Assembly: GCA_013152435.1 (NCBI GenBank)
Contig: JAADGJ010000112.1
Span: 1 to 43,883 of the forward strand
Source of the DNA: Chloroflexota bacterium
GTDB lineage: Bacteria; Chloroflexota; Anaerolineae; DUEN01
Direction: 5' to 3'
DNA: 43,883 nucleotides
Shown: piece by piece, positions 3,571 to 43,883 of the stretch
Layout: every line of letters starts with the position of its first letter
Position numbering within the stretch: the first letter of the stretch is position 1
Translations under genes and position numbers: made by a program
Notes under the pieces: model-generated
Told to the model about the DNA's origin: nothing
Database searches by the model: none
The model's input: the letters and a program-made list of their open reading frames with translations, nothing else

Positions 3571-3634
3571 TATTCGCATCAACCGAACAGCATGAGCGAG
3601 GCCCCCGCCTGTCGCTTTTTCCCTCCATGGGCGG

Positions 3635-3835
3635 CTGCACCTGAAAGGGGAGGTGCGGAGGGGAAGCCCCTCCGCAGAAAAACTCTTTTCCTCGCCCCTT
3701 ACCTGCCTGGTTGGGGCTTTGGCCGGTGGCCTCCGGCCCCACGGGGCAGGTGAGGGGCTGAATATAGAGTTCTTCGGAGGGGCGGCCGCTCCTCCGAGCC
3801 ACCCCAGAGATGCGGAACCACGCTTCCGTATCGCT
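3635..3835. repeat. Structured repeat A, copy 1 (A1)
   Basis: About 200 bases of strongly folding DNA: a GCGGAGGGG/CCCCTCCGC hairpin near 3655-3677, an AAAAACTCTTTTCC linker, a long stem starting CCCCTTACCTGCC and closing GGCAGGTGAGGGG (about 3695-3755), then a GGAGG...CCTCC hairpin near 3776-3800. The segment from the linker to the last hairpin recurs in reverse orientation at about 41315-41490 with high identity. No protein is supported here. Edges are approximate. Confidence 0.75.
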
Positions 3836-4745: not shown

Positions 4746-4835
4746 CCAACGTCCTCCATCCCGCTACGCCCATTCTCGCTCAGCTTACTCTCTGCCCATA
4801 CTGGTTGATGTCGATCACTGAGGATCGTTCATAAA

Positions 4836-5013
4836 AGTGTGTCTGATGACCTGCCCGGCCTCGGCCCAGATCCCTGCGGAAAGAGACGAGAAAGGCAGGT
4901 GCAGGCCGGAAAAGTGGGATCTCCGTGGAGGAAAGATTCCCTCCACACCTCCCCCTGTGGAGCTGGTATCTGAGGGAGACCCTCAGATACCTTACCGGTA
5001 ATAAATTTTCTCC
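4836..5013. repeat. Repeat B, copy 1 (B1), internally deleted
   Basis: It starts with AAGTGTGTCTGATGA, a match to the B terminal repeat, then jumps directly to CCTGCCCGGCCTCGGCC, so about 55 bases present in other copies are missing. The rest (GGCAGGTGCAGGCCGGAAAAG, CTCCCCCTGTGGAGCTGG) follows the family. It also holds a perfect 12-bp hairpin, GGTATCTGAGGG (4965-4976) with CCCTCAGATACC (4980-4991). The right terminal repeat has decayed. It lies inside the holB-ricT interval. Confidence 0.78.
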
Positions 5014-5032
5014 AAGATAGCTCCAACACCCC

Positions 5033-7454: not shown

Positions 7455-7680
7455 TTGGTAGCGTATCTAAAATGGCGGAAATTTCGCGAGACGACCCACG
7501 ACGCCCATCGCAAGCCCACAGGGGAGGTACGGAGGGACCTCCCTCCGCCAAAACCTCTTTTTTTCCGCCTTGCACCTGCTCCTTCCTAGCCTGATCCGGG
7601 TAGAGGAGGCCAGGCGAAGCAGGTAAAGGGCGAAAACCCGGAAGTTTCTTTTGAGGGGCTGCGCCCCTCAAAGCTCCCCG
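7455..7680. repeat. Structured repeat C, copy 1
   Basis: This fills most of the divergent gap between the zinc-ribbon gene and mgsA. The segment around 7485-7550 (CGCGAGACGACCCACGACGC..., GGAGGGACCTCCCTCC) matches in reverse orientation the sequence at about 10950-11035. A CCAAAACCTCTTTTTTTCCG linker and a CACCTGC...GCAGGT stem follow, the same plan as repeats A and B. It ends with a 10-bp hairpin TTTGAGGGGC/GCCCCTCAAA (7650-7672). No gene is supported. Confidence 0.7.
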
Positions 7681-7718
7681 TCGTGTTTCCACCGAAAAAG
7701 ATACACGATCCACAGGTG

Positions 7719-10831: not shown

Positions 10832-11035
10832 GAGCATGTCTGAGAAATGCCATTCCTCTGCCATGGGGAGGCCCGGAAGAGCCTCGCCCTCCGGGAAAAG
10901 CCCTTCTCCCCAGACCGGGGAAGGAAGGCACGAGGCGGACAAAGGGGATGGGAGGCCCCTCCGCACTTCCTCCGTGGGCCCGCGATGGGCGTTGTGGGGC
11001 GTCTCACGGGATCTCTGTCGTTTTGGATATACGAC
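10832..11035. repeat. Repeat B/C hybrid (B2)
   Basis: The left end GAGCATGTCTGAGAAATGCC is a B terminal repeat, followed by a B-like body with GGGGAGGCCCGGAAGAGCC and GGGAAAAGCCCTTCTCC. The right part from about 10950 is instead the reverse complement of the repeat C segment at 7465-7540. It lies in the divergent gap between tpiA and the Cys-rich mini-protein gene. Confidence 0.7.
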
Positions 11036-18196: not shown

Positions 18197-18318
18197 GCAT
18201 CTCGGGATCGCGTCCAATGGCGAACGGGACCTCGCAAAGGACCTGCCACAGAAGCGGGTCGTGTATTCTCCTCGGTGGAAACACGGCGGGGAGCCGTGAG
18301 CTATGATCCGGGGGATGG

Positions 18319-18365: not shown

Positions 18366-19649
18366 TTGGCATCCATTTCACGCGACTGGTCCCAGGTGAG
18401 AGCCCAATTCCCCGCGCTTTCCCTCACCGTGAACGACCGCCCCGCGGTGTACTTCGACAACCCCGGCGGCACCCAGGTCCCCCAATGCGTCATCGACGCC
18501 ATGACGCATTATCTGCGCCAGGCGAACGCCAACGTACACGGCGCCTTCCTGACCAGCCAGCGCACCGATGAGATCCTGGCCGATGCCCACCAGGCCATGG
18601 CGGACATGCTGAACGCCAGCTCCCCAGACGAGATCGTCTTCGGCCCCAACATGACCACCCTGACCCTGGCGATCAGCCGAGCCATCGGCCGGCTGATCCG
18701 CCCCGGCGATGAGATCGTCGTCACCCGGCTGGACCACGACGCCAACATCGCCCCCTGGCTGGCGCTGGAAGAACAAGGAGCCGTGATCCGCTGGGTCGAC
18801 TTTGACGTGGAGGATTGCACACTGGACATGGAGGATATGCGCTCCAAAATCAACGAGCGCACACGCCTGGTGGCGGTCGGCTACGCGTCTAATGCCGTGG
18901 GCACCGTCAACGACGTGGCCACCATCACCCGGTGGGCACACGAGGCGGGCGCATGGATCTATGTGGACGCCGTCCAATACGCGCCCCACGGCCCCATCGA
19001 CGTACAGGCCCTCGGCTGCGATTTCCTGGTCTGCTCCGCCTATAAGTTCTTCGGCCCACACGTGGGCGTGCTCTACGGGCGCTATGATCTGCTAGACCAG
19101 TTGCCGGCCTACAAGGTGCGTCCGGCCCCAGACGATCCCCCCGGGAAGTTCCAGACGGGCACACAGAATCACGAGGGGATCGCGGGCACGGCCGCCGCCG
19201 TAGAATACCTGGCGGAATTGGGCCGCACATTCGGGCGAGAGCACCAAACGGCATTCCCGGACTTCACCGGTCGCCGTCGCGATGTGCACGCCGGGCTGGC
19301 GGCCATCCGGGCGCACGAGCGCGATCTGGTGGCCCGACTCATCGACGGGCTGATCCAGATCCCAGGGCTTCGCGTGTACGGGATCACCGATCCCGATGCC
19401 TTCGACCAACGAGTCCCAACGGTCTCCTTCACGATCCAGGGGATATCCCCCCGGGAGATCGCGACGCGCCTCGGGCAAGAGGGCATCTTCGTATGGGATG
19501 GAAACTACTACGCTTTGGCCGTCACGCAGCGCCTGGGAGTGGAGGAATCCGGCGGCATGGTCCGGGTGGGACTCGTCCACTACAACACGGCCGAGGAGAT
19601 CGACCGACTGATCGAAACGTTGCATCAGATGACGCAGGAGGGTCCATGA
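18366..19649 (+). CDS. Cysteine desulfurase-like aminotransferase class V protein
   Basis: The 427-residue protein is a fold-type I PLP enzyme of the cysteine-desulfurase-like group often annotated as VC1184-type. PVYFDNPGGTQVP-type N-terminus (here AVYFDNPGGTQVPQ), the cofactor Asp D201 in YVDAVQYAPHG and the Schiff-base Lys K227 in CSAYKFFGPHVGVLYG are present. No SufS/IscS-type catalytic loop cysteine stands out, so desulfurase activity is uncertain; other lyase or aminotransferase reactions are possible. The start is a TTG at 18366 with GGAGGT 7 bases upstream, and no better start is available. Its TGA overlaps the ATG of the next gene by 4 bases, so the two are translationally coupled. 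Confidence 0.88.
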   Translation: MASISRDWSQVRAQFPALSLTVNDRPAVYFDNPGGTQVPQCVIDAMTHYLRQANANVHGAFLTSQRTDEILADAHQAMADMLNASSPDEIVFGPNMTTLTLAISRAIGRLIRPGDEIVVTRLDHDANIAPWLALEEQGAVIRWVDFDVEDCTLDMEDMRSKINERTRLVAVGYASNAVGTVNDVATITRWAHEAGAWIYVDAVQYAPHGPIDVQALGCDFLVCSAYKFFGPHVGVLYGRYDLLDQLPAYKVRPAPDDPPGKFQTGTQNHEGIAGTAAAVEYLAELGRTFGREHQTAFPDFTGRRRDVHAGLAAIRAHERDLVARLIDGLIQIPGLRVYGITDPDAFDQRVPTVSFTIQGISPREIATRLGQEGIFVWDGNYYALAVTQRLGVEESGGMVRVGLVHYNTAEEIDRLIETLHQMTQEGP

Positions 19650-20407
19650 GCCTGCCGCCGTTGCTTCCGCTAAAGGACGTCGGCACCGTCACTCTGTTCG
19701 TCACCTGCATGGTGGACACGTTCTACCCTGAAGTAGGAGAAGCTGTCGTCGACCTGCTGGAGGGTTTGGGATTACAGGTTGCCTTTCCAGAGGCGCAAAC
19801 GTGCTGCGGCCAACCGGCCTACAACGCCGGCTATCGAGAGGACGCCAAAGCGCTGGCGCGGCGCTTCCTGGACGTGTTTGAGAACGCCGAGGTGATCGTG
19901 ACGCCGTCCGGCTCCTGCGCGGCCATGATCCGTCACGGCTATCCAGACCTCTTCTCGGACGATCCCGGGACGCTGGCCAGAGCCCAACGGATCGCGGAGC
20001 GAACGTGGGAGTTCAGCCAGTTCCTGGTCGACGGATTGGGCATCACCGATCTGGGGGCGCGCTTTGACGGGAAGATCGCCTACCATGCCTCCTGCCACCT
20101 CACGCGCATGCTGGGCATCACCCATCCTCCACGAGTACTGTTGAGCCACGTCCGCGGCGCGCAACTGGTCGATCTACCCGGATATGACGAGTGCTGCGGG
20201 TTCGGCGGCCTGTTCGCCGTCAAGATGGCGGAGATCTCCTCGGCGATGTTGGCCCGCAAGCTGCGCAACATCGATCGCAGCGGAGCGGATATCGTCATCA
20301 CCTGCGATGTCAGCTGCATGACGCAGATCAACGGCGGGCTACACCGGTCCGGAATGCCGCAGCGAGCCTATCACCTGGCGCAATTCCTGGCTGAACACCG
20401 GACGTAA
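19646..20407 (+). CDS. LutA/HdrB-like CCG-domain (Fe-S) protein
   Basis: The 253-residue product has two CCG (DUF3483/cysteine-rich) domains: TCCGQPAYNAG with a downstream PSGSCAAMIRHGYPDLF, and YHASCHLTRMLG with CCGFGGLFAVKMAEISSAML and CDVSCMTQI. This is the pattern of LutA/YkgE, a subunit of the Fe-S lactate oxidase LutABC, and of HdrB. I chose the ATG at 19646, preceded by GCAGGAGGG and overlapping the previous stop. No LutB or LutC partner is present, so it may work with subunits elsewhere or with the PLP protein. The stop codon is followed at once by repeat B3. Confidence 0.88.
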   Translation: MSLPPLLPLKDVGTVTLFVTCMVDTFYPEVGEAVVDLLEGLGLQVAFPEAQTCCGQPAYNAGYREDAKALARRFLDVFENAEVIVTPSGSCAAMIRHGYPDLFSDDPGTLARAQRIAERTWEFSQFLVDGLGITDLGARFDGKIAYHASCHLTRMLGITHPPRVLLSHVRGAQLVDLPGYDECCGFGGLFAVKMAEISSAMLARKLRNIDRSGADIVITCDVSCMTQINGGLHRSGMPQRAYHLAQFLAEHRT

Positions 20408-20649
20408 GAGTGCACCTGAGAAATGCCTTTGCCTCTGCTGTGAGGAGGCCCTCCGGAAAAAGCCTTTCTCCCGCCTTCGACCTGCCTGGCCTCGGCCCGA
20501 GTCCTTCGGGAAGGGCCGAGAACGGCAGGTGCAGGCCGGAAAAGCGAAGTTTTCCGTGGAGAAGGAGGCCCTCTCCACACCTCCCCCTGTGGAGCTGGTC
20601 GTTGGGGAAGCCCCTCAGGCACCTTGCCGGTAAACTCTCAGACGCGCTC
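20408..20649. repeat. Repeat B, copy 3 (B3), full length
   Basis: A 242-bp element with imperfect 15-bp terminal inverted repeats, GAGTGCACCTGAGAA at the left and the complement of GAGCGCGTCTGAGAG at the right. Inside are a GGAGGCCCTCC hairpin, AAAAAGCCTTTCTCCC, a long stem from CCTGCCTGGCCTCGG to CCGAGAACGGCAGG and a CTCCCCCTGTGGAG segment. It begins one base after the lutA-like stop codon. Confidence 0.85.
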
Positions 20650-20652
20650 CAA

Positions 20653-20892
20653 GAGTGTGTCTGAGAAACGCCGTCACTTCTGCCGTGGGGAGGCCCTCCG
20701 GAAAAAGCCTTTCTCCCGCCTTCGACCTGCCCGGCCTCGGCCTGGATCCTTCGGGAAGGGCCGAGAACGGCAGGTACAGGCCGGAAAAGCGGGATTTCCG
20801 TGGAGGGGAGGCCCCCTCCACACCTCCCCCTGTGGAGCTGGTCGTCGAGGAAGACCCTCAGACACCTTGCCGGTAAATTTTCAGACACGCTC
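20653..20892. repeat. Repeat B, copy 4 (B4), full length, tandem to B3
   Basis: A 240-bp element with left end GAGTGTGTCTGAGAA and right end complementary to GAGCGTGTCTGAAAA, separated from B3 by CAA and followed by CAA. It is about 88-90 percent identical to B3 by eye. This is the best reference copy of the family. Confidence 0.87.
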
Positions 20893-20922
20893 CAAGCGAA
20901 ATACAGGGTACCTATAGACAAT

Positions 20923-28378: not shown

Positions 28379-28585
28379 GAGCGTCTCTGAGAAATGCCGT
28401 TGCCTCTGCTGTGAGGAGGCCCGGAGGGGTTCCGCCCCTTCGGAAAAAGCCCTTCTCCCGCCTCTGACCTGCCCGGCCTCGGCCCGGGGCCTGCGGAAAG
28501 GGCCGGGAAAGGCAGGTGCAGGCCGGAAAAGTGGGGTTTTCGTGGAGGGGAGGTCTCCTCCACACCTCTCCCTGCGGAGGCATGC
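28379..28585. repeat. Repeat B, copy 5 (B5), right end missing
   Basis: The left end GAGCGTCTCTGAGAA and the whole B body through CTCCACACCTCTCCCTGCGGAG are present; the last 50 bases and right terminal repeat are replaced by unrelated sequence. An extra GGAGGGGTTCCGCCCC insertion enlarges the first hairpin. Position: between the rhomboid and LLM genes. Confidence 0.8.
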
Positions 28586-28764
28586 GCCTGCACCTCTGGG
28601 GTGACTCGAAGAAGCGGCCAGTCCATTCGAGCCTTCCCTTTCAGGTGCAGCCATCCTATCGGGCAAGGAAACCGACGGGGGAAGCCTTGCCTGCGCCATT
28701 CAACTGACACGCGAGGTCTATCCGGATCGCCGCCGAGCGGCCTTGGGAGCAGGGAGGTGTATAG

Positions 28765-40256: not shown

Positions 40257-41249
40257 TTAAACCTCGATGGGCTCGCTCAGGAACCCCACGATCAGCCGAA
40301 TGGCGTTCTGCACATCGCCGTAATCCACCATCTCCGAGGGGGTGTGCAGATAGCGCGTCGGGATGGAGACGCACCCTGCCGGCACCCCCGCCCGGCTGAT
40401 CTGGATCGTCATGGCGTCCGTCGTGCCGAGCTCCAACACCTCCAGCTGATAGGGGATCTGCAGGCGCTCGGCCGTCTCCACCAGGCGATCCTTCACCCCG
40501 GGATGAGCCAGCATCCCTCGATCCTTGACCTTGATGGCCGGGCCCACGCCGAGCTGTACCGGACGCCTTTTCGCCTCCGGCGTGTCCCCTGTGGCCGTCA
40601 CGTCGATGGCCAACGCCAGCTCCGGCTCCACACCAAAGGCCGAGGTCGTGGCACCGCGCAGACCTACCTCCTCCTGGACGGTGAACACCCCCACCACCTC
40701 ATGGGGGGTCTCCTGAAGCTGTCGCATCACCTCGATCAGGATCGCACAGCCGATCCGATCATCGAAAGCCTTGGCCACCATACGACCGCCCAGATCGGAG
40801 AACTCTCGCCAGAACACGGCCGGATCACCGACTTTCACCGGGCAGTCCTCACGGGAGGCGGCGCCCACATCGATGAACATCTGGTCCAGACGAGGATTCC
40901 CCTCCGCCTTCTCCTCCCGATGAATGACGCCCACCCGGCCATCCCGGAACCGCACGCGCGCGCCGCGCAGGTTCAGAGGATGCACGCCTCCGAGGTTGGT
41001 GAAGCGCAGGAATCCCTTCTCATCCACATGGGTCACCATGACGCCGATCTCGTCCATGTGCGCGGCCAGCATCACGCGCCGCCCGCCTCCTTGACGGGTC
41101 GGCCTCTTCACGGTGATCAGATTACCCAGCGCGTCCACGCGCCACTCGTCGACCGCGTCGGCCACCTCGGCGAGGATCTGCTCTCGCACCTGATCCTCAT
41201 AACCGGATGGTCCCCATGCCTCCACCAGTTGCTTGATGAGATCCTTCAC
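40257..41249 (-). CDS. M42-family glutamyl aminopeptidase-like peptidase, copy A
   Basis: The 330-residue product has all M42 (TET/FrvX) metal and catalytic residues: H64 in MLAAHMDEIG, D163 in AKAFDDRIG, catalytic E193 and metal E194 in TVQEEVGLRGA, D216 in LAIDVTATGDTPE and H302 in TRYLHTPSEM. These enzymes form cytoplasmic tetrahedral dodecamers that trim peptides. The start is a GTG at 41249 with AAGGAGCGG 7 bases upstream; the frame is open to 41639, but that extension covers repeat A2 and a hairpin and is not family-like. It is one of three M42 genes in a row, about 35-45 percent identical by eye. The alpha/beta hydrolase and surE follow. Confidence 0.94.
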   Translation of the reverse strand: MKDLIKQLVEAWGPSGYEDQVREQILAEVADAVDEWRVDALGNLITVKRPTRQGGGRRVMLAAHMDEIGVMVTHVDEKGFLRFTNLGGVHPLNLRGARVRFRDGRVGVIHREEKAEGNPRLDQMFIDVGAASREDCPVKVGDPAVFWREFSDLGGRMVAKAFDDRIGCAILIEVMRQLQETPHEVVGVFTVQEEVGLRGATTSAFGVEPELALAIDVTATGDTPEAKRRPVQLGVGPAIKVKDRGMLAHPGVKDRLVETAERLQIPYQLEVLELGTTDAMTIQISRAGVPAGCVSIPTRYLHTPSEMVDYGDVQNAIRLIVGFLSEPIEV

Positions 41250-41314
41250 CGGACCGCTCCTTATCGCGCTCTCAACGTTAAGATAGTGATGAGGGTACCC
41301 CTCATAATCCACAT

Positions 41315-41492
41315 TCAGCGGTACAGAACATGGCCCTGTATCTCCGGAGTGGCTCGGAGGGACTACCGCCCCTCCGAAGAACTCTATTTCCGGCCCCTCA
41401 CCTGCCCCGTGGGGCCGGAGGCCACCGGCCAAAGCCCCAACCAGGTAGGGAAAAGGCGAGAGAAAGCGTTTTTCTGAAGGAGGCGACACGTG
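41315..41492. repeat. Structured repeat A, copy 2 (A2), reverse orientation to A1
   Basis: Its reverse complement matches A1 from CTTTC-TCTCGCC through the long CCTACCTGG...CCCCACGGGGCAGGTGAGGGG stem to the CTTCGGAGGGGCGG hairpin and GAGCCACTCCGGAGAT end. The 21-bp direct repeats that flank A1 are absent here. It lies between M42 copies A and B. Confidence 0.75.
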
Positions 41493-41493
41493 G

Positions 41494-41532
41494 GTTTTGC
41501 GGCGGCGCAGCGAAACTGCGCCGCCGCAAAAC
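41494..41532 (-). terminator. 17-bp hairpin after M42 copy B
   Basis: GTTTTGCGGCGGCGCAG (41494-41510), loop CGAAA, CTGCGCCGCCGCAAAAC (41516-41532): a perfect stem that begins 7 bases past the M42-B stop. No U tract follows on the minus strand. Confidence 0.75.
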
Positions 41533-41538
41533 TCCCTA

Positions 41539-42579
41539 TCAGCGCTCCAGCACGGCGGGGGAGAGCCGGCGCAGCGCCGCCTCCATGAGCTGCACAGTCC
41601 ACTGGAGGTCCTGCTTATCCAACAGGGACGCCGGGCCATGGATGTATCGGCAGGGCACGGCCGCGACCGCGCTGGGCACCCCTTCGCGAGCCAGGTGAAT
41701 GCGCCCTGCGTCCGTGCCGCCCACGCCCGGCTGCTTCAACTGGTACGGGATGCCCTCCTCCGCCGCCGTCTCGATCAGGAACCGCAACAACCGAGGGTCG
41801 ACGAAAACGGAACGATCCATCACCGTCAACGCCGGCCCCTTCCCCAACTCCGTCGTCGGGCTTTCATCCTTCTCCTTGGGCAGGTCGTCCGCGACGGTGC
41901 CCTCCAACACGAAGGCGACGTCCGGATCGATCTCGTACGCGGCCACCCGAGCCCCCCGCAGACCGATCTCCTCCTGCACGGTGAACACGGCGTACAACTC
42001 CACCGGATATGGGCCAGCGGCGAGCAATTGGGCTAACACCGCGCACCCGGCCCGATCATCGAACGCCCTGCCCTTGACGCGCGGCCCCAGATCGGCGAAA
42101 TCGGTCGCGAATACGGCCCGATCGCCGCGCTTGACCAGACGCCCGGCCTCCTCCTCGCTGGAGACGCCGATGTCGATGAACAGATCATCCACGCCTAGAA
42201 CCCGCTTGTTCTCCGTCCCGGAAAGCAGATGGATCGGCTTCACGCCGATGACGCCGGGGAGGCCATCCTTGCCCACCCGCACCACCTTGGAGGGCAGAAT
42301 GCGATCATCGATGCCCCCCACCTTACGAAAGCGAAGCCCGCCGTTCTTCTCCAGGCGGATGACCATGAGGCCGACCTCATCCATGTGAGCCGCCACCATC
42401 ACCCGCATGGGATGATCCCCCGCAGCGTGGCGCACAGCGATCAGATTGCCCAGGGCATCCACCCGGATCTCGTCCACATGAGGCTCTATGGCCTCCCGCA
42501 GGATCGAGCGCACGGCCCCTTCATCGCCGGACACGCCAGGCGCCTCCGACAGGCGTTTTAACAGATCGAGGATATCCAT
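41539..42579 (-). CDS. M42-family aminopeptidase-like peptidase, copy B
   Basis: The 346-residue product has H in VMVAAHMDEVGL, D in GRAFDDRAGC, EE in TVQEEIGLRGA, and H in CRYIHGPASL. The fourth metal ligand is Glu in FVLEGTVADDLPK rather than the Asp of copies A and C, a substitution that occurs in one M42 subgroup, so it need not be inactive. The substrate loop GVGGTDAGRIH differs from the GTTDAM of copy A. The ATG at 42579 follows GAGGGGGGAC. It lies 8 bases after copy C, so those two are tightly coupled, while repeat A2 and a terminator separate it from copy A. This subgroup may prefer a different N-terminal residue. Confidence 0.94.
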   Translation of the reverse strand: MDILDLLKRLSEAPGVSGDEGAVRSILREAIEPHVDEIRVDALGNLIAVRHAAGDHPMRVMVAAHMDEVGLMVIRLEKNGGLRFRKVGGIDDRILPSKVVRVGKDGLPGVIGVKPIHLLSGTENKRVLGVDDLFIDIGVSSEEEAGRLVKRGDRAVFATDFADLGPRVKGRAFDDRAGCAVLAQLLAAGPYPVELYAVFTVQEEIGLRGARVAAYEIDPDVAFVLEGTVADDLPKEKDESPTTELGKGPALTVMDRSVFVDPRLLRFLIETAAEEGIPYQLKQPGVGGTDAGRIHLAREGVPSAVAAVPCRYIHGPASLLDKQDLQWTVQLMEAALRRLSPAVLER

Positions 42580-42587
42580 GTCCCCCC

Positions 42588-43643
42588 TCACTCCATCTTC
42601 AATGCGTCGAGGAACGCGTCGTCCAGGCCAGCGATGAAGTGCGCTAACAGCCGACCAGCCCGCTGGATATCCTTCAACGACAGCGTCTCCACCGAGGTGT
42701 GCATGCTCCGCAAGGGGATGGAGATCAACCCGGTGGGAACCCCAGCTCGGGTCACCTGCATGGCCCACGCATCCGTCCCCGTCGCGGCCGGGATCGGATC
42801 CACTTGATAGGGGATCTCCTGCTCCTTCGCCGTCTCCTCCAGGCGCTCGAACACGGCGGGATGGATATTCGGGCCCAGCGCGATGGCCGGTCCTTTGCCC
42901 ACTTCCACCGTCTCCGCGTCGCTCACCCCCGGCTGGGCGCCAAAGGTCACATCCAGGGCGATCCCCACCGTCGGCGTGATCGCGAAGGTGCTCGTGGTGG
43001 CCCCCTTCAGACCCACCTCCTCCTGGACGGTCGCCACCGCGTAGACGTCCCAGGCGTGTCGCATCCCCCGGAGGGCATCCAGGCAGGCCAGCACGGCCAC
43101 CACACACGCTCGATCGTCGAACGCCTTGCCGGCCACAAGCTCATTCCGCAGCTCGACGAAGGGCCGATACATCGTGATCAGATCCCCGGTGCGGACCAGC
43201 TCCTCCACCTCCTCCGCGGGCAGGCCCACGTCGATCAACAGGTCCTCACGAGCGATAACCTTCTTTCGCTCGTCCGGAGGCAACACGTGCGGCGGCCGGC
43301 TGCCGATGATCCCCCGCAGCGGACGTCGCCCGTGAACCACGACCTCCTGCCCCAAGAGCACCCGATCGTCGAAGCCGCCCACGGTGGCAAAGCGGATAAA
43401 CCCCTTCTCCACGCGGGTCACGATGAGGCCGATCTCGTCCATATGAGCCGCCAACATGACGCTGGGGCCGCGCCCCTGGGCGGCAGTCCCCCGGCGCAGC
43501 CCGATGATATTCCCCAACGCGTCGGTGCGGACCTCATCGACCCGATCGCTCATCTGCTCGATGACCCGGGTGCGCACCTCCTCCTCATAGCCAGCCACAC
43601 CGCTGGCCTCCGAAAGCTGCTGCAACACCGACTTGACGTCCAC
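42588..43643 (-). CDS. M42-family aminopeptidase-like peptidase, copy C
   Basis: The 351-residue product is complete: H in MLAAHMDEIGL, D in GKAFDDRACV, EE in TVQEEVGLKGA, D in GIALDVTFGAQPG and H in LRSMHTSVETL. The gate loop reads AATGTDAWAMQ. The insertion PPHVLPPDERKKVIAREDLLID lies at the dimer region as in other family members. The ATG at 43643 follows CAAGGAGGC. It is the first of the three tandem M42 genes as transcribed, with repeat B6 immediately upstream, so the promoter probably lies at or beyond the repeat. Confidence 0.94.
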   Translation of the reverse strand: MDVKSVLQQLSEASGVAGYEEEVRTRVIEQMSDRVDEVRTDALGNIIGLRRGTAAQGRGPSVMLAAHMDEIGLIVTRVEKGFIRFATVGGFDDRVLLGQEVVVHGRRPLRGIIGSRPPHVLPPDERKKVIAREDLLIDVGLPAEEVEELVRTGDLITMYRPFVELRNELVAGKAFDDRACVVAVLACLDALRGMRHAWDVYAVATVQEEVGLKGATTSTFAITPTVGIALDVTFGAQPGVSDAETVEVGKGPAIALGPNIHPAVFERLEETAKEQEIPYQVDPIPAATGTDAWAMQVTRAGVPTGLISIPLRSMHTSVETLSLKDIQRAGRLLAHFIAGLDDAFLDALKME

Positions 43644-43671: not shown

Positions 43672-43883
43672 GAGTGTGTCTGAAAAATGCTGTTGCTTCT
43701 GCTGGGGGGGAGGCTCGGAGGGGCGGAGCTCCTCCGGAAAAAGCCCTTTTTCTGCCTTCAACCTGCCCGGCCTCGGCCTGAGTCCTTCAGGGAGGGCCGA
43801 GAAAGGCAGGTGCAGGCCGGAAAAGTGGGATTTCCGTGGAGGGGAGGACCCCTCCACACCTCCCCCTGTGGAGCTGGTCGTTG
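43672..43883. repeat. Repeat B, copy 6 (B6), cut by window edge
   Basis: Begins GAGTGTGTCTGAAAA and follows the B consensus to CTCCCCCTGTGGAGCTGG at the window end; the right terminal repeat would be outside. It lies 28 bases upstream of M42 copy C. Confidence 0.85.

Follow-up and report, generated by a model that had tools for sequence, protein, structure and literature searches.

The window analysed here, a stretch of 43,883 nucleotides, is the complete contig C112 of its assembly (G000; 4.97 Mb in 149 contigs), which represents an uncultured Caldilineae-type Chloroflexota bacterium. Directly behind a gene at 19493-20407, whose product is a cysteine-rich CCG-domain protein, lie two full-length forward-strand copies of a MITE, hereafter repeat B, which are 88% identical to each other. 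The first (20408-20649, 242 bp) has the ends GAGTGCACCTGAGAA and GAGCGCGTCTGAGAG. The second (20653-20892, 240 bp), which serves as the reference copy, has GAGTGTGTCTGAGAA at its start and GAGCGTGTCTGAAAA, inverted, at its end, its left terminal inverted repeat occupying 20653-20667 on the forward strand and its right one 20878-20892 on the reverse strand. The sequence CAA at 20650-20652 separates both copies and forms the left duplication of the reference copy, whose right duplication is the CAA at 20893-20895. The reference copy thus has CAA on both sides, whereas the flanks of the first copy are unlike (TAA left, CAA right). Judged from the sequence, the open reading frame and the C-TNA-G target consensus, this TAA (20405-20407, forward strand) serves both as the left target trinucleotide of the first copy and as stop codon of the gene that precedes it. 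Equally tight arrangements, in which 2-3 bp separate copies or copy ends that are oriented in tandem or back to back, also occur at G000:C12:31284-31732 and G000:C82:33791-33823; such spacing suggests that a single TNA was targeted more than once, or that the segment was duplicated locally.

The end sequence GAGYGTGTCTGARAA occurs six times in the window when up to two mismatches are allowed, against 0.22 expected, and the six copies that the initial annotation had placed at about 4836, 10832, 20408, 20653, 28379 and 43672 are all present. The others, likewise on the forward strand, are rearranged or cut. At 4835-5021, a degenerate left end (AAGTGTGTCTGATGA) is fused straight to the core and the right end has decayed, in agreement with the internal deletion ascribed to this copy. 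The supposed hybrid at 10832-11006 is indeed a chimera, in which the left part of the MITE is followed by a right part resembling the repeat at 7471-7714 read backwards (right part and join assigned by eye). The copy at 28379-28652 had been described as lacking its right end; that end is absent, and the MITE, recognizable up to about 28587, continues from about 28588 into the end of a different repeat, an inverted match to 3633-3662. The copy at 43672-43883 is cut by the contig end and covers positions 1-195 of our sequence model, as judged from the model match.

Other repetitive features occur alongside these copies. A palindromic interspersed repeat of 146 nt, whose occurrences at 3602-3822 and 41331-41500 are 86% complementary to each other, is without repeat B ends and weakly similar to the repeat B core. 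A further palindromic repeat, at 7471-7714 and 18256-18300, has a 45-nt end segment common to both places; at the far end, it is similar to the right part of the 10832 chimera. Three adjacent M42 aminopeptidase paralogues on the minus strand at 40257-43643 (Pfam E < 1e-87 each) account for the direct repeats D4 and D8 of the window.

Copy number, structure and age of repeat B

The many genomic copies expected of a mobile element were found: a sequence model trained on 32 copies yielded at least 151 matches in the own genome, all scoring strongly among the matches listed. Exact GAGYGTGTCTGARAA occurs there 155 times (73 and 82 on the two strands), compared with 0 occurrences of the reversed control. 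Detailed reading of 90 distinct full-length copies from this genome revealed two size classes, so that the 240-bp body initially reported describes the class of about 240 bp, while a second class of about 256 bp carries an insert of 16-17 bp around position 40. The 15-bp terminal inverted repeats (left GAGTGTGTCTGARAA, right GAGCGTGTCTGAAAA) are present as claimed and imperfect, typically with 12-13 of 15 positions matching across the full copies. Left and right versions are distinct, position 4 being T in 69 of 90 left ends and C in 85 of 90 right ends.

Mean pairwise identity among the 90 copies is 85.6% and the highest 96.7%, with a median identity to the consensus of 92%. The expansion is old and without recent copies, and we infer that the transposition wave is over in this lineage. 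Among 60 relatives, substantial DNA matches to repeat B were confined to G001, the sister species and only same-genus genome in the set. Searches with the sequence model returned 12 matches in G001 and 28 in G003, the best of the latter reaching only E 1.6e-9, and none in G002 or G015; G002 and G003 represent other genera of the family. The exact right-end consensus was absent elsewhere in a collection of one genome per species (84,980 species), outside which the own species and its nearest relatives possibly fall. For the two copies at loci L002 and L005 (G000:C44 and C115), about 125 bp of upstream flank at the contig starts are 98% identical and the downstream sequences are unlike.

Target site and empty sites

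Identical 3-bp duplications flank 51 of the 90 full copies; when the partners were shuffled 1000 times, such matches averaged 14.8 and never exceeded 27. Duplications of 2, 4 and 5 bp were seen in just 3, 0 and 1 cases. Of the 51 exact 3-bp duplications, 48 have the form TNA, embedded in C-TNA-G. The flanking bases are constrained accordingly, with T at -3 in 81/90 and A at -1 in 84/90 copies, whereas the central base is free. We attribute the lack of an exact duplication in the remaining 39 of 90 copies to their age. Repeat B thereby displays the exclusive 3-bp TNA duplication that is a trait of the IS1031 subgroup.

Comparison with relatives revealed sites without a copy, the evidence of mobility that the initial annotation had called for. 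The copy at C63:7451-7705 is missing from G001:C157:29518-29937, where 420 bases align unbroken across the junction at 87% identity. For the L273 copy (C102), the site is empty in G001:C194 (71% identity), and the joined flanks are also unbroken in G003 (66%). Around the site of the window copies, the same two flanking genes are found in G003 and G002, where the spacer is shorter and holds no copy. Retention of all copies at shared positions, the pattern that would have argued against transposition, is therefore not seen. A site-by-site search of the own loci for paralogous empty sites returned only self-matches and nested repeats among the matches listed.

Position, coding potential and folding

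Gene positions were predicted with a simple gene finder based on codon usage. Of the 83 copies that could be evaluated against them, 76 (92%) are intergenic, whereas this holds for 135 of the 292 CTNAG sites found in these segments; neither convergent nor divergent gene pairs are favoured. This bias towards spacers fits the loss of gene-breaking insertions. A protein-coding frame was rejected: copy lengths are spread evenly over the residues modulo 3 (34/29/27) and no reading frame is open in all 90 copies. The initial annotation had likewise ascribed the peptide similarity among frames in the copies to the DNA repeat and not to a gene.

Repeat B folds far better than shuffled sequences on both strands (z of -6.0 and -4.3). 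Together with the occupation of spacers, such folding would be expected of a REP- or ERIC-like palindrome that is kept for a function in transcripts, e.g., as a processing site, terminator or structured RNA, and that spread without an IS transposase. Some excess of pair-keeping double changes (22 vs. 8) also points in this direction. However, the excess is above shuffles on both strands and can be explained by common ancestry of subfamilies, the covariation term for the consensus fold is weak, and no Rfam family matched the window at gathering thresholds, although Rfam is incomplete for such repeats. A selected RNA should moreover accumulate more C>T than G>A changes on its strand, as the former keep a G-U pair, but rare changes in G-C pairs lack this skew (C>T vs. 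G>A of 52:46 on the plus and 35:47 on the minus strand). An RNA function thus finds no support in the consensus fold, in covariation or in the strand-specific mutation test, and the strong folding is better explained by the body being a series of DNA palindromes. In view of the clean TNA duplications and the empty sites, we consider maintenance and spread as a transcript element quite improbable. Secondary co-option of the palindromic body by the host, e.g., as an intergenic signal for RNA processing or transcription termination, is also unlikely, although slightly less so; if true, the host would retain more than 150 regulatory hairpins derived from a dead MITE family.

Candidate helper element

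The search for an IS with the same ends succeeded in the sister species G001; the own assembly yielded no such transposase. DUF4096 is the N-terminal part of IS5-type transposases, and the first ORF of the G001 IS fragments, whose frame closes, matches this domain with E 7e-35. Two left ends (GAGTGTGTCTGAATATTTG) and one right end (GAGCGTGTCTGAAAATTCGAG) were recovered, each adjoining TAA; each of these three fragments runs into a contig end, such that left and right are never joined on one molecule. Repeat B (right end for comparison, GAGCGTGTCTGAAAATTTACC) matches these IS ends over the terminal 12 to 17 bases and diverges beyond them, and in both elements position 4 distinguishes the left end (T) from the right end (C). 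The sister genus G002 contains the same type of IS with slightly different ends. Repeat B is hence a short element with terminal inverted repeats that has its ends in common with the IS of G001 and G002, the similarity being confined to these ends, as is characteristic of type II prokaryotic MITEs.

Related transposases in archaea, cyanobacteria and other bacteria (loci L121, L128, L129, L143, L151, L157 and L161) belong to elements of about 850-940 bp with TNA duplications and GAG..TGTYTGAAAA ends, which include GAGCGTGTTTGAAAAG and GAGGGTGTCTGAAAAG. The IS1031 subgroup of IS5 is described as having two overlapping ORFs and as generating 3-bp TNA repeats exclusively (PMC12016507). Given the end type, the TNA duplications and these published traits, the candidate helper IS likely belongs to the IS1031 subgroup, a placement drawn from sequence comparison.

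Within the own assembly, no close IS5-type transposase was detected; the only DUF4096 protein, encoded on C67, is 35% identical. The corresponding IS5-type element (L064 1374-2289, G000:C67), the sole representative detected in this genome, has ends beginning with GAGCCTGTTATGCAC, and was rejected as the helper because its ends differ from those of repeat B. The ends of the G001 IS likewise gave no match in G000. The helper may have been lost, or it may have been left out of the assembly, since multi-copy IS break short-read assemblies. Another IS of the own genome could alternatively have acted as the helper, for instance the element at L065 891-2336 (G000:C12), which encodes a DDE_5-type transposase in two reading frames. 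This IS has a transposase of a DDE family, is inserted between TAA trinucleotides and adjoins a 358-bp variant of repeat B. Its ends (GCTCGACTTTGTACG), however, are unrelated to those of repeat B, which are found on the IS5-type element of the sister genomes instead, rendering such a helper highly improbable.

We therefore return to the IS5-type element and infer that the helper was the G001-type IS or one closely related to it. Repeat B is a genuine type II MITE, non-coding and non-autonomous, representing a new sequence family of a well-known kind with an unusually large number of copies. The interpretation initially offered, a non-autonomous transposon moved by a transposase encoded elsewhere, is supported by the copy number, the now defined ends and TNA duplications, the empty sites and the matching IS. 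We assign a probability of about 0.93 to this reading as a whole, in which repeat B is a type II MITE that has only its ends in common with its helper and was mobilized by an IS5-family, IS1031-type transposase. In the proposed mechanism, such a transposase would comprise a DUF4096 N-terminal part and a DDE domain encoded in a second, frame-shifted ORF. Supplied in trans, it would recognize the GAGYGTGTCTGARAA ends of repeat B, excise or copy the element, and insert it at C-TNA-G with duplication of TNA.

Relation to known elements

Repeat B and the IS of this genus resemble the IS1031 subgroup of the IS5 family in their GAG-type ends with TGTYTGAAAA and in the 3-bp TNA duplication. A DUF4096 transposase in two overlapping frames is a probable further likeness of the genus IS, whose contig-cut fragments show the DUF4096 part and the closing of the first frame. 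Unlike IS of the subgroup, repeat B lacks a transposase gene and has about 12-17 terminal bases in common with the IS; without two overlapping transposase frames of its own, it is at most a derivative and not a member IS. Similar type II prokaryotic MITEs have been described in Methanosarcina acetivorans, whose IS5-associated MITE measures 140 bp and is present in 24 copies with an IR of 16 and a DR of 3 (PMC3852290), and in Geobacter, where Chunjie (235 bp) occurs in 38 copies with conserved ends (PMC10969869). Repeat B shares with both the short, non-coding nature, the IS-type ends, many copies in spacers and frequent truncated copies, but differs in sequence, host phylum and its strongly palindromic body; its copy number is far above that of the M. 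acetivorans MITE. ERIC and Correia (NEMIS) elements are similarly palindromic and intergenic and exceed 100 copies in some hosts. Their sizes, ends and target are other than those of repeat B, a comparison made by description together with the negative Rfam search. A literature search for described MITEs of Chloroflexota returned nothing relevant.

Implications for Chloroflexota

Unrelated short bodies bounded by ends identical or nearly identical to those of repeat B, in many cases next to TNA, were observed in G015 (L070, L075, L078, L080, L086), G050 (L069, L074, L077) and G001 (L067, L073, L079, L085, L087), with 84 exact end matches in G015 alone. As the same ends enclose unrelated bodies in these genomes, several MITE families of independent origin in this phylum appear to owe their spread to a single IS type. 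Several contigs end inside or next to repeat B-type repeats, which are thus part of the reason why metagenome assemblies break. Within a branch of the Chloroflexota that has received little study, repeat B itself constitutes a well-delimited MITE family of very high abundance, for which a likely helper type, the target and the empty sites have been worked out.
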